Source: Burkholderiales bacterium (GTDB lineage Bacteria > Pseudomonadota > Gammaproteobacteria > Burkholderiales > Burkholderiaceae_C). Taken from it: 64,000 nt of DNA. The stretch lies in the NCBI GenBank assembly GCA_016219375.1, contig JACRNC010000011.1:124001-188000 (forward strand), written 5' to 3'. This document shows positions 48,094 through 59,523 of this stretch, piece by piece. The stretch's first letter is position 1. Each line of letters starts with the position of its first letter. The translations under genes and the position numbers were made by a program. Under the pieces are notes generated by a model. The model saw only the letters and a list, made by a program, of their open reading frames with translations. It made no database searches and was not told the DNA's origin.

Positions 48094-48900
48094 TCAGGCA
48101 GCGGGCCCCGGCTGCAGTGCCGCGTGCAAGGCCATCAACTCCCGCGTGAGCTTGTGGCGCGGGTCCAGGTGGATCATGGGCCGCGACAGCTGGTGCGACT
48201 CCTTCACCTTGACCGAGGCGCTGAGGTAGGGCTGCAGCACCGGCAGGCCTTCGTCGATCAGCTCCTGCACCAGCCGCTGCGGCAGGTTGGCCCGCGGCTG
48301 GAACTGGTTGACCACGATGCCGGTGATGGCCAGATCGGCGTTGTGGTCGGCCTGGATCTCCTGCACGTTCTCCAGCAGGGCGTAGAGCGCGCGGCGCGAG
48401 AAGTCGTCGCAGTCGAACGGGATCAGGCAGCCCTGCGCCGCGATCAGCGCCGAGCGCGTGTAGAAGTTCAGCGCCGGGGGCGTGTCGATGTAGACGCGGT
48501 CGTAGTCGGCCGCCAGCTCGGCCAGCGCATCGCGCAGCTTGTAGATCTTGTAGCGGCTCTCCAGCTTGCCCTGCAGCTCCTCGAGCTGCGGGTGCGAGGG
48601 CAGCAGGTGCAGGCCATCCCAGGGCGTGTCCACCACGAAGTCGGCCGTGGCGCGCGGGCGGGCGACGAACTTCAGCGTCTGCTCGAAGAAGGCCGCGGCA
48701 TGGCGGTCATCGTCCGTGCCCTGGCCGAGCAGGTAGTGGGTGGAGTTGCCCTGCGGATCCAGGTCCACCAGCAGCGTGCGCTGCCCCTCGTGCGCGCTGA
48801 TCGCGGCCAGGTTGCTGGCAATGGTGGACTTGCCCACCCCACCCTTCTGATTGAAGACGACGTAGCGCACCGGCGGCCTCCTGCTTGAGCGATCGTGCAT
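48094..48900 (-). CDS. ParA family ATPase
   Basis: [18 protein letters not shown] deviant Walker [15 protein letters not shown]. Confidence 0.94.
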
Positions 48901-48970
48901 TGTGCAGCGCAACACCCGGCGTTTGGGCAGCCCGGCCGGCATCCGTCGCCGCGCAGGCGAGCGACGTCGA

Positions 48971-56214: not shown

Positions 56215-57780
56215 TCAGCGCAGAAACAGCCGATACACCGGGTTACGCGTTTCCTCGACATACGGATAGCCCAGCGTGTCGAGGAAGGTCTTGAGCGCCG
56301 CCTGCTCCCCGCGCGGCACCTGCAGGCCTACGAGGATGCGGCCGTAGTCGCCGCCCTGGTTGCGGTAGTGGAAGAGGCTGATGTTCCAGTCCGGGTGCAT
56401 GCTGGAGAGAAACGTCATCAGCGCGCCCGGCCGCTCCGGGAAGGTGAAGCTGAACAGGCGCTCGTCGCTCGCCAGCTCGCAGCGCCCGCCCACCATGTGG
56501 CGGATGTGCGTCTTGGCCAGCTCGTCGTGCGTCAGGTCCACCGTGGCGAAGCCCTGGCGCTGGAAGTGGCTGGCGATCTGCCGCGACTCGCCGCGCGCGC
56601 TGGTGCTCAGGCCGACGAAGATGTGCGCCTGCTGCGCATCGGAGATGCGGTAGTTGAACTCGGTGACGCTGCGGGGGCCGATCAGGCCGCAAAAGCGCTT
56701 GAAGGAGCCGCGCTCCTCAGGGATGGTCACCGCGAACAGCGCCTCGCGCTCCTCGCCCACGTCGGCCCGCTCGGCCACGAAGCGCAGGCGGTCGAAGTTC
56801 ATGTTGGCGCCGCAGACGATGGAGACGAACGTCTGCCCCTTCTTCTTGTGGCGCTGCGCGTATTGCTTGATCGCCGCCACGCCCAGGGCGCCGGCCGGCT
56901 CCACCACGGCGCGGGTGTCGGTGTAGATGTCCTTGATGGCCGCGCACACTGCGTCGGTGTCCACCACCACGTAGTCGTCCACCAGCTCGCGCGCCAGGCG
57001 CAGGGTCTCGCTGCCCACGGTCTTGACCGCGGTGCCGTCGGAGAACAGGCCGACGTTGGGCAGCGTCACCCGCTTGCCGGCCTTGACCGAGCGCACCATC
57101 GCGTCGGAGTCGACCGTCTGCACGCCGATGACCTTGATCTCCGGCCGCACGGCCTTGATGTAGGCAGCCACGCCGCTGATCAGCCCGCCGCCGCCGATGG
57201 CCACGAACACCGCATCGATCGGCCCCTGGTGCTGGCGCAGGATCTCCATGGCCACCGTGCCCTGGCCGGCGATCACGTCCGGGTCGTCGAAAGGGTGCAC
57301 GAAGACCAGCTTGCGCTTGCGCTCCAGCTCCAGCGCGTGCTCGTAGGCGTCGGAGTAGCTCTCCCCGAACAGCACCGCCTCGCCGCCCAGCGCGCGCACG
57401 GCGTCCACCTTGACCTGCGGCGTGGTCACCGGCATCACGATCACCGCCGTCGTGCCCAGCCGCCGCGCGCCCAGGGCCACGCCCTGCGCATGGTTGCCGG
57501 CCGAGGCGCAGATCACCCCGCGCTTCAATTGCGCGGGCGAGAGCTGCGCCATCTTGTTGTACGCGCCGCGCAGCTTGAAGCTGAACACCGGCTGCGTGTC
57601 CTCGCGCTTGAGCCACACCTGATGGCCCAGCCGCGCCGACAGGTTGCGCGCCGGCTGCAGCTCGGACTCGATGGCCACGTCATAGACCCGCGCGGTCAGG
57701 ATCTTCTGCAGGTAGTCGAGCCGGGTCAGCGGGCGTGCGCCGCTATGGGCAGCACGGGACGGCGCGGCAGCGCGGGGCAT
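56215..57780 (-). CDS. ilvA: Threonine ammonia-lyase, biosynthetic
   Basis: KREDTQPVFSFKLRGAYNKM PLP lysine motif; two ACT-like C-terminal domains; 521 aa. Confidence 0.95.
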   Translation of the reverse strand: MPRAAAPSRAAHSGARPLTRLDYLQKILTARVYDVAIESELQPARNLSARLGHQVWLKREDTQPVFSFKLRGAYNKMAQLSPAQLKRGVICASAGNHAQGVALGARRLGTTAVIVMPVTTPQVKVDAVRALGGEAVLFGESYSDAYEHALELERKRKLVFVHPFDDPDVIAGQGTVAMEILRQHQGPIDAVFVAIGGGGLISGVAAYIKAVRPEIKVIGVQTVDSDAMVRSVKAGKRVTLPNVGLFSDGTAVKTVGSETLRLARELVDDYVVVDTDAVCAAIKDIYTDTRAVVEPAGALGVAAIKQYAQRHKKKGQTFVSIVCGANMNFDRLRFVAERADVGEEREALFAVTIPEERGSFKRFCGLIGPRSVTEFNYRISDAQQAHIFVGLSTSARGESRQIASHFQRQGFATVDLTHDELAKTHIRHMVGGRCELASDERLFSFTFPERPGALMTFLSSMHPDWNISLFHYRNQGGDYGRILVGLQVPRGEQAALKTFLDTLGYPYVEETRNPVYRLFLR

Positions 57781-57929
57781 GGGCAGCACTCCAGGCAAGG
57801 GATCGTGGGGAGCCGGGGATGATAAGAGCCGGCCTCAGCGGCCTCCGGCTGCGCGAGCCGGGCACCCGCCACGCCTGCACTGCAGGCCGGCGCACCACGA
57901 AAAACTGTGTGCCCTGCATCCCCGGAAAT

Positions 57930-58044
57930 AAAAAAACCCGGGGTCTTGCAACCCCGGGTTGAATCCACCAATGGAGGAGGGTGGAGGAGACAAACAGTGT
58001 TGCGATAGAGCCGCTGGTGAGCGGCTGGTTTCGCAAACACTGTG
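57930..58044 (-). ncRNA. Candidate sRNA (CU-rich, two hairpins, intrinsic terminator) upstream of ilvA
   Basis: Minus strand: -35 TTGCGG, 18-nt spacer, -10 TACAAT; hairpin ACAGTGTTTGCGA...TCGCAACACTGT enclosing AGCCGCT-CACC-AGCGGCT; CTCCTCCACCCTCCTCC; terminator AACCCGGGG-ttgcaaga-CCCCGGGTTTTTTT. Confidence 0.65.
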
Positions 58045-58113
58045 TCAAATTGTAGAGGCTGGCCCGGGTTTACCGCAATAGCAGACGCTCACGTACACGG
58101 ATGGGGCTGCCGA

Positions 58114-58166
58114 CCAGCCCAACCAGCCCAACCAGCCCAACCGGCTGATCGGCTGATCGGCTGACC
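58114..58166. repeat. Adjacent 9-bp (aaccagccc) and 8-bp (cggctgat) tandem repeats
   Basis: ccagcccaaccagcccaaccagcccaaccggctgatcggctgatcggctga. Confidence 0.85.
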
Positions 58167-58281
58167 GGGCGAGAGCGAGAGCCGGCCCACAATTCAGGCC
58201 CCCACCGGCGTCGCCCCTCTCCTGGCGCGAGCCGCCGGCGTTTCATCACCTCAGCCCGCGGCCCGGCCGCTCGCATCGAAC

Positions 58282-58704
58282 ATGGACTGCACGATCAACT
58301 GGATGCCGGCCAACGGCATGGCGTTCTCCGCCGAAACCGGCAGCGGCCACCTGCTGACGATGGACGGCGCCCCCGACGGCGGCGGCCGCAACCTGGCCCC
58401 CCGCCCGATGGAGCTGCTGCTGGCCGGCACCGGCGGCTGCACCGCCTACGACGTGGTGCTGATCCTCAAGCGCGGCCGCCACGACGTACGCGGCTGCCAG
58501 GTCAAGCTCACCAGCGAGCGCGCCGCCACCGAGCCCAAGGTCTTCACCTGCATCAACATGCACTTCATCGTCACCGGCGTGAACCTGCCCCCGGCAGCGG
58601 TCGAGCGTGCCATCCAGATGTCGCACGACAAGTACTGCTCCGCCAGCATCATGCTGGGCAAGACGGCCGAGATCACGACCAGCTTCGAGGTGGTGGCCGC
58701 TTGA
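58282..58704 (+). CDS. OsmC family protein
   Basis: PRPMELLLAGTGGCTAYDVVLILKRGRHDVRGCQVKLTSERA. Confidence 0.93.
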   Translation: MDCTINWMPANGMAFSAETGSGHLLTMDGAPDGGGRNLAPRPMELLLAGTGGCTAYDVVLILKRGRHDVRGCQVKLTSERAATEPKVFTCINMHFIVTGVNLPPAAVERAIQMSHDKYCSASIMLGKTAEITTSFEVVAA

Positions 58705-58801: not shown

Positions 58802-59437
58802 TCAGACCCGATGGGCCGTCGTCGTCATGACCCTGGCTGCCAGCCGCATCAGGCCCTGGATGGGGGCGGGCAGGCTGGCTGCGCCGGCGTCGCGGGCGGC
58901 GGCGCCGTGGCGGATCTCGTCGTCGCGCATCTGCTCGACGATGGCGCGCGATGCGGTGTCGCCCTGGGGCAGGCGGGCCATGTGACTGTCCAGGTGCTGC
59001 TCGACCTGGCGCTCGGTCTCGACGACGAAGCCCAGGCTCCATTTGTCGCCGGCGCGGCCGGCGGCCAGGCCGATGGCGAAGGCACCGGCGTACCACAGCG
59101 GGTTGAGCAGGCTGGTGCGGCCGCCCAGCTCGTCGATGCGCTGCTTGGTCCAGGCCAGGTGGTCGGTCTCCTCGCGGGCGGCCTGCTCGAAGTGGGCCTT
59201 GAGCTGCTCGTCGCGGGTGGCCAGGGCGGCGGCGGTGTAGAGGGCCTGGGCACAGACCTCGCCGACATGGTTGACGCGCATCAGCGCGGCGGCCTCGCGC
59301 TTGTCTTCGTCGCTCAGCGCGCTGCCTTCTTCGGCCACCTGCGGCGTGGGCCGGCCGGCCACGGCATTGCCGAATACCGTGCGCAGCGCGTTGTCGGCAG
59401 AAACCAGCAGGCGGTCGAGGGGCGTCAGGGCGGGCAT
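58802..59437 (-). CDS. coq7: Coq7-type demethoxyubiquinone hydroxylase
   Basis: [25 protein letters not shown] diiron motifs (EETDHLAW), [16 protein letters not shown]. Confidence 0.95.
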
Positions 59438-59523
59438 GGCCTTCACCTTCGGGGGTGGGTATCAGGGTAGACCGGGGCATCTTACCCATCGCCCCTGCCA
59501 GGAGGCTCGGTTAGGCTGCGCCG

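Follow-up and report, generated by a model that had tools for sequence, protein, structure and literature searches.

A minus-strand locus in the 64-kb window (the whole stretch of DNA analyzed) very probably encodes an orthologue of the S17/double-hairpin small RNAs (sRNAs) of Rfam family RF02278, retained at the ancestral osmC–coq7 divergent site, where an RNA of ∼115 nt would be cut to ∼64 nt and block Shine–Dalgarno sites. The positions of its parts and neighbors are collected in Table 1.

An RF02278 sRNA beside osmC

The Rfam covariance model matched this locus over its full length (model positions 1–64 of 64) with 65.1 bits, against a gathering score of 50 (E 2.3e-12). The match was the sole Rfam match within the whole window and, in a covariance-model search of the genome at E ≤ 0.001, the single RF02278 copy, and its score is among the best of its genus. 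RF02278, named "Betaproteobacteria toxic sRNA," includes the B. cenocepacia double-hairpin RNAs ncS03, ncS05, ncS27 (BdhR1), and ncS62 (PMC5688073, PMC4603805) as well as Herbaspirillum copies (PMC7011215), and B. pertussis S17 is related to RF02278 RNAs by its authors' own comparison (PMC11722255). A sequence-only reading of the same DNA had described a real CU-rich, anti-Shine–Dalgarno, stand-alone sRNA with its own promoter and terminator, and all of the elements it described were located on the minus strand; the Rfam search that it proposed returned the above-gathering match and so assigned the sequence to a named family and not to the "cuckoo" sRNAs that had been suggested. As the sRNA is already of a known kind, the window copy by itself adds one species and one orthology, that of an osmC-linked S17.

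Table 1. Positions of the sRNA locus, its predicted parts, and adjacent genes in the window.
Feature	Position	Strand	Basis
Mature sRNA body	57929..57992	-	full-length RF02278 match
Site 1, UGUCUCCUCC, anti-Shine–Dalgarno 5′ end	57983..57992	-	nearly invariant among relatives
Hairpin 1, UCCACC/GGUGGA, second anti-Shine–Dalgarno CUCCUCC (57979–57973) in loop	57964..57985	-	covariation, fold
Intrinsic terminator, 11-bp stem + U run	57930..57960	-	fold + terminator scan
5′ leader hairpin of long form	57994..58043	-	50 nt; fold; unique in genome
-10 element TACAAT	58049..58054	-	sequence; 5/6 to consensus
-35-like element TTGCGG	58073..58078	-	sequence; 3/6 to consensus
osmC-type gene, divergent; conserved neighbor of the sRNA	58282..58704	+	NF008009 153 bits; synteny
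coq7	58802..59446	-	NF033656 317.8 bits
ilvA, threonine ammonia-lyase; incidental downstream neighbor	56215..57780	-	TIGR01124 816 bits

The 116 nt from 57929 to 58044 were predicted to fold with −56.3 kcal/mol (z = −8.15; none of 200 shuffles reached this stability). In this fold, UCCACC (57985–57980) is paired with GGUGGA (57969–57964), leaving UGUCUCC single-stranded on the 5′ side, and because of this pairing the first of the two CUCCUCC motifs, already noted by eye, falls half in a stem, and the second lies in the loop. The CU-rich stretch ahead of the terminator (CTCCTCCACCCTCCTCC), previously taken to be unpaired, is partly single-stranded and partly held in the UCCACC/GGUGGA stem, and the terminator is present with a stem of 11 bp, counting end pairs, rather than 9 bp. 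A covariation analysis, also suggested in the sequence-only reading, found compensatory changes in hairpin 1: 96% of cells were paired, with seven double-change cells among 30 diverse sequences, a level reached by 0 of 500 shuffles. Site 1 (UGUCUCCUCC) was almost unchanged across relatives in sequence comparison.

The gene order in the window is ilvA, the sRNA, divergent osmC, and coq7 adjoining osmC. An osmC-type gene adjoins the sRNA in all 21 genus loci, and in a 200-genome sample of the order, 55 of the 85 genomes with both genes listed carry an RF02278 copy ≤1.5 kb upstream of the osmC orthologue, divergently oriented in 55 of 55 and spread over 19 families. This synteny across 19 families marks an ancestral locus and the window copy as the S17 orthologue; coq7 is likewise the neighbor of S17 in B. 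pertussis (PMC11722255). In some lineages, RF02278 has expanded to 6–9 copies per genome (G043, G089, and G188 of family f8; G145 of family f32).

Resemblance to known sRNAs

A sigma-A promoter drives the long form S17L, which RNase E shortens to S17S, the 5′ end of which is a CU-rich single strand; S17 is Hfq-dependent and directly represses BP2158, and its 5′ end is 100% conserved in various Betaproteobacteria (PMC11722255). The window locus resembles S17 in its coq7 neighbor, its promoter, a structured leader on the long form, a predicted short form starting at the CU-rich strand, anti-RBS sites 1 and 2, and a terminator, a layout compatible with S17-like RNase E processing and Hfq dependence. 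In contrast, the S17 leader is ∼123 nt long with a 32-codon ORF and that of the window ∼50 nt without that ORF, the −35 elements differ (TTGCAT in S17, TTGCGG in the window), and the window promoter has no PhaR-type box. With the B. cenocepacia RNAs ncS03, ncS05, ncS27, and ncS62, the window sRNA has in common two hairpins, anti-Shine–Dalgarno CU stretches, and a terminator, but it differs in its single copy, strong 5′ hairpin, and osmC neighbor. A longer form of ncS27 is processed, as proposed for the window sRNA; ncS27 also slows growth, and its level is higher in biofilm, under starvation, and in glucose medium (PMC5688073).

Two alphaproteobacterial groups were also compared. MmgR (alpha-r8, RF00519) of Sinorhizobium meliloti is, like the window sRNA, a short RNA and is Hfq-dependent, with a promoter repressed by PhaR (PMC12542648, PMC8401924); PhaR repression is likewise proposed below for most RF02278 relatives. 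The window copy, however, has no PhaR box, and RF00519 was absent from the matches up to E 10 between 57000 and 59000. The cuckoo (alpha-r14) RNAs, including NfeR1 and CcsR, are alike in presenting anti-Shine–Dalgarno CU motifs at unpaired positions to multiple RBS targets. Membership in this family was rejected: alpha-r14 RNAs have three hairpins, each with CCUCCUCCC (PMC10746234), whereas the window RNA has one anti-Shine–Dalgarno hairpin plus the 5′ strand, with CUCCUCC motifs, and alphaproteobacterial cuckoo-type Rfam models were likewise absent from matches up to E 10 in the same interval.

Proposed action and candidate targets

The transcription, processing, Hfq dependence, targets, and physiological role of the window sRNA would be expected to follow those of its relatives. 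Transcription would begin near 58043 and end at 57930, giving an RNA of ∼115 nt with a 5′ hairpin. As for S17L and S17S, and for ncS27, cleavage at the base of the CU-rich single strand would leave an RNA of ∼64 nt. The UGUCUCCUCC 5′ end and the loop CUCCUCC would then pair, probably with Hfq, to extended Shine–Dalgarno sequences (GGAGACA, GGAGGAGACA), blocking translation from a set of mRNAs for transporters and catabolic functions upon a change in nutrient supply. GGAGACA is exactly complementary to UGUCUCC at the 5′ end. In a 419-kb sample (about 12% of the genome) used for ribosome-site statistics, it stood ahead of starts in 8 of 17 occurrences, an enrichment of 4.3, and genome-wide the pattern GGAGACA-N0-8-ATG occurred 34 times versus once for the reversed pattern. 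Among the genes preceded by such sites are those for PhaM (NF043076), for an ABC transporter ATPase that scores best against the LivF model (246 bits, short of the cut-off of 441), and for a Peripla_BP_6-type periplasmic binding protein; on the strength of their start-site sequences, these three are candidate targets.

Complementarity of the sRNA core to the plain Shine–Dalgarno sequence would also fit an RNA that is made but serves mainly as a general brake on translation over many such sequences rather than on selected targets, and RF02278 members inhibited E. coli on cloning or overexpression (as reported in PMC5688073 and PMC4603805). This is unlikely: S17S showed no toxicity in exponentially growing E. 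coli BL21 and acts on a defined set of genes (PMC11722255), so that the "toxic" of the family name is not to be taken as a function, and GGAGACA precedes just 8 of the 281 GGAG-led starts in the sample, leaving room for target selection.

Predicted PhaR boxes at RF02278 promoters of the order

The motif TGC-N3-GCA was found within 140 nt upstream in 44 of 65 RF02278 copies outside the window's genus, versus 2.6% in shuffles. It forms the core of the footprinted Herbaspirillum PhbF site TG[N]TGC[N]3GCAA (PMC3206438) and of the R. eutropha PhaR consensus YTKNTGCRNYGCANMAR (PMC12849132). A PhaR box was scored at two or fewer mismatches to the latter, since matches with three mismatches were loose (20–25% of other stretches), and phaR was scored by PF07879. 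By these measures, a box was predicted at 43 of 56 copies from phaR-positive genomes and 1 of 9 from phaR-negative ones (Fisher p 3e-4; background in neighboring DNA, 2.8%), and in a held-out set of 34 further copies, fetched afterwards, at 11 of 17 and 0 of 17, respectively (p 9e-5), counts that are not phylogenetically independent. Among 77 loci selected by an exact 31-nt core, mostly from named genomes, 61 had the box, versus 4% of random stretches. Two within-lineage contrasts did not support the association: G161 (phaR-positive, of the same genus as phaR-negative G045) and G118 (phaR-positive, family f44), both from phaR-poor lineages, showed no convincing box, and the association between box and phaR therefore reflects differences between families. 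Most Cupriavidus copies are without a good box, and Ralstonia copies have an off-position match only. Boxes were also present at RF02278 copies not linked to osmC (families f28 and f50), which indicates that the box goes with the sRNA and not with osmC. In families lacking phaR, a different palindrome, about TATTAGANAATNCTAATA, lies near the sRNA promoter (L017, L045, L049, L057, L060, L204, L206–L211, L213, L215–L217, L223).

These patterns suggest that the promoter of most RF02278 copies in the order carries an operator for PhaR, a repressor that senses PHB. In Bordetella genomosp. 2 and 12, the box includes the −35 element itself (TTGCAT or TTGCAA, 17 bp, TATGAT or TACTAT), and TTGCAT is the published −35 of S17 (PMC11722255). 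The S17 authors postulate a repressor of the S17 promoter, which they leave unnamed (PMC11722255); from the box, PhaR is a candidate for it. S. meliloti PhaR binds and represses the promoter of the sRNA MmgR (PMC12542648). No description of a link between PhaR and RF02278/S17 sRNA promoters was found in the literature searched, and a review calls the riboregulation of PHB in Cupriavidus necator undeciphered (PMC8401924). An operator at most RF02278 promoters, if true, would tie an sRNA that blocks ribosome sites to carbon storage and would fit the greater abundance of RF02278 RNA in glucose medium (PMC5688073). We lean slightly toward a reading in which RF02278/S17 belongs to the PhaR regulon in most Burkholderiales, as a counterpart of PhaR–MmgR with PhaR repressing S17, and in which the window's genus has been rewired, with the operator lost and a second, phasin-tail sRNA present.

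The window's genus as an exception

None of 22 RF02278 copies of the genus had a PhaR box at two or fewer mismatches, and one had a match at three, as in shuffles; a box in the window's own sRNA promoter was rejected as no better than chance. The window genome has phaR (PF07879), and the genus appears to have lost from this promoter an operator that is present in most of the order. Several sister species also show an eroded anti-Shine–Dalgarno core at the same locus (CTCTCCACT, TCATCTCCACG), with the promoter, a GTGGAACTTT-like element, and the terminator retained upstream of osmC (L029, L030, L094–L104), from which the locus would seem to be under relaxed or altered selection in the genus. 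Together with the loss of the box and the second CU-rich sRNA behind a phasin gene, these eroded cores would suit a decaying or repurposed copy in the window species, transcribed but no longer a significant regulator. We give this only a small chance of being correct, as the window copy, albeit with a new leader, has kept the ancestral core at 65 bits, among the genus's best, and its stem and terminator are intact.

The second CU-rich sRNA candidate (G000:C17:23834-23913, plus strand; L105 1500-1577; also L087–L091 and L226–L255) lies directly behind or in the tail of a phasin gene (PF09361), upstream of which a motif scan placed two PhaR boxes. Its sequence is UUGUCUCCUCGGUACC...GGUACC followed by a terminator; an RNA processed from the tail would start with UUGUCUCCUCGG. 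An RNA model of this element matched in 63 of 81 family genomes, and each of the best 30 loci was directly downstream of a phasin gene on the same strand. Rfam thresholds were reached by none of 12 phasin-tail loci tested; the nearest models for the window genome's copy were ncS54 (30.8 bits) and RF02278 (28 bits). By sequence, the element is a candidate undescribed, non-Rfam sRNA related to the RF02278 RNA, and it and the PhaR operator are the parts worth testing. The genome holds 31 PhaR-like boxes versus one match to the reversed pattern. One PhaR-like box, TTGCGCTGCACAAT, lies in the window at 48899–48912 on the minus strand, ahead of a gene for a ParA/MinD-type ATPase (48094–48891, minus strand), and the divergent ORF beside it resembles a MarR-type regulator by eye.

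Promoter, leader hairpin, and downstream gene

The elements TTGCGG and TACAAT are separated by an 18-nt spacer and predict a transcription start near 58043. The promoter proposed in the sequence-only reading, TTGCGG-N18-TACAAT, has both elements present, and its position is conserved, with TACA(A/C)T between −61 and −67 relative to the mature 5′ end, and TTG ∼17 nt before it, in 14 of the 21 other genus loci; by consensus it is weak, and it was absent from a strict promoter scan. Directly downstream, the long hairpin that had been described, a one-bulge arm enclosing an AGCCGCT/AGCGGCT stem, was found as stated, reading as DNA AGCCGCT/AGCGGCT inside ACAGTGTT.GCGA/TCGC.AACACTGT. In RNA, its outer stem consists of ACAGUGUU/AACACUGU plus GCGA/UCGC with one bulged U, and its inner stem of AGCCGCU/AGCGGCU; the leader by itself has a predicted fold of −27.5 kcal/mol (z −6.5). 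The hairpin sequence is specific to the window species, shared with none of the relatives fetched, and a genome search found it once, a single occurrence that led us to reject a genomic repeat. A long, near-perfect inverted repeat directly downstream of a −10 element could also be a DNA element, such as a protein operator or repeat, and not part of the RNA. This is unlikely, given the hairpin's uniqueness in the genome and the tendency of relatives' leaders to fold too: although these differ strongly from one another in sequence, they have more structure than the DNA further upstream (87 loci with no correction for relatedness; median z −1.78 vs −0.15). At this position, a structured RNA leader is therefore to be expected.

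The sRNA in the window lies 130–150 nt short of the ilvA start (57780, ATG, or 57798, TTG) on the same strand, and the region might be read as an ilvA 5′ leader or attenuator, with signal-tuned read-through of the terminator controlling threonine deaminase; this is very improbable and largely refuted by synteny, as a comparison with relatives, also called for in the sequence-only reading, found no ilvA next to the sRNA in 19 of 21 genus loci and an osmC neighbor in 19 families, the transcript contains no ATG leader ORF, and the full RF02278 match with its anti-Shine–Dalgarno core argues against it. The earlier preference for an sRNA over attenuation, and its observation that an ATG ORF is missing, were borne out, but its linked neighbor, ilvA, gives way to the osmC–coq7 locus, ilvA adjoining the sRNA in just 2 of the 21 loci of the genus. 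The interval from the sRNA promoter to osmC contains short tandem repeats (58114–58170), with about three copies of CCAGCCCAA followed by repeated CGGCTGAT.
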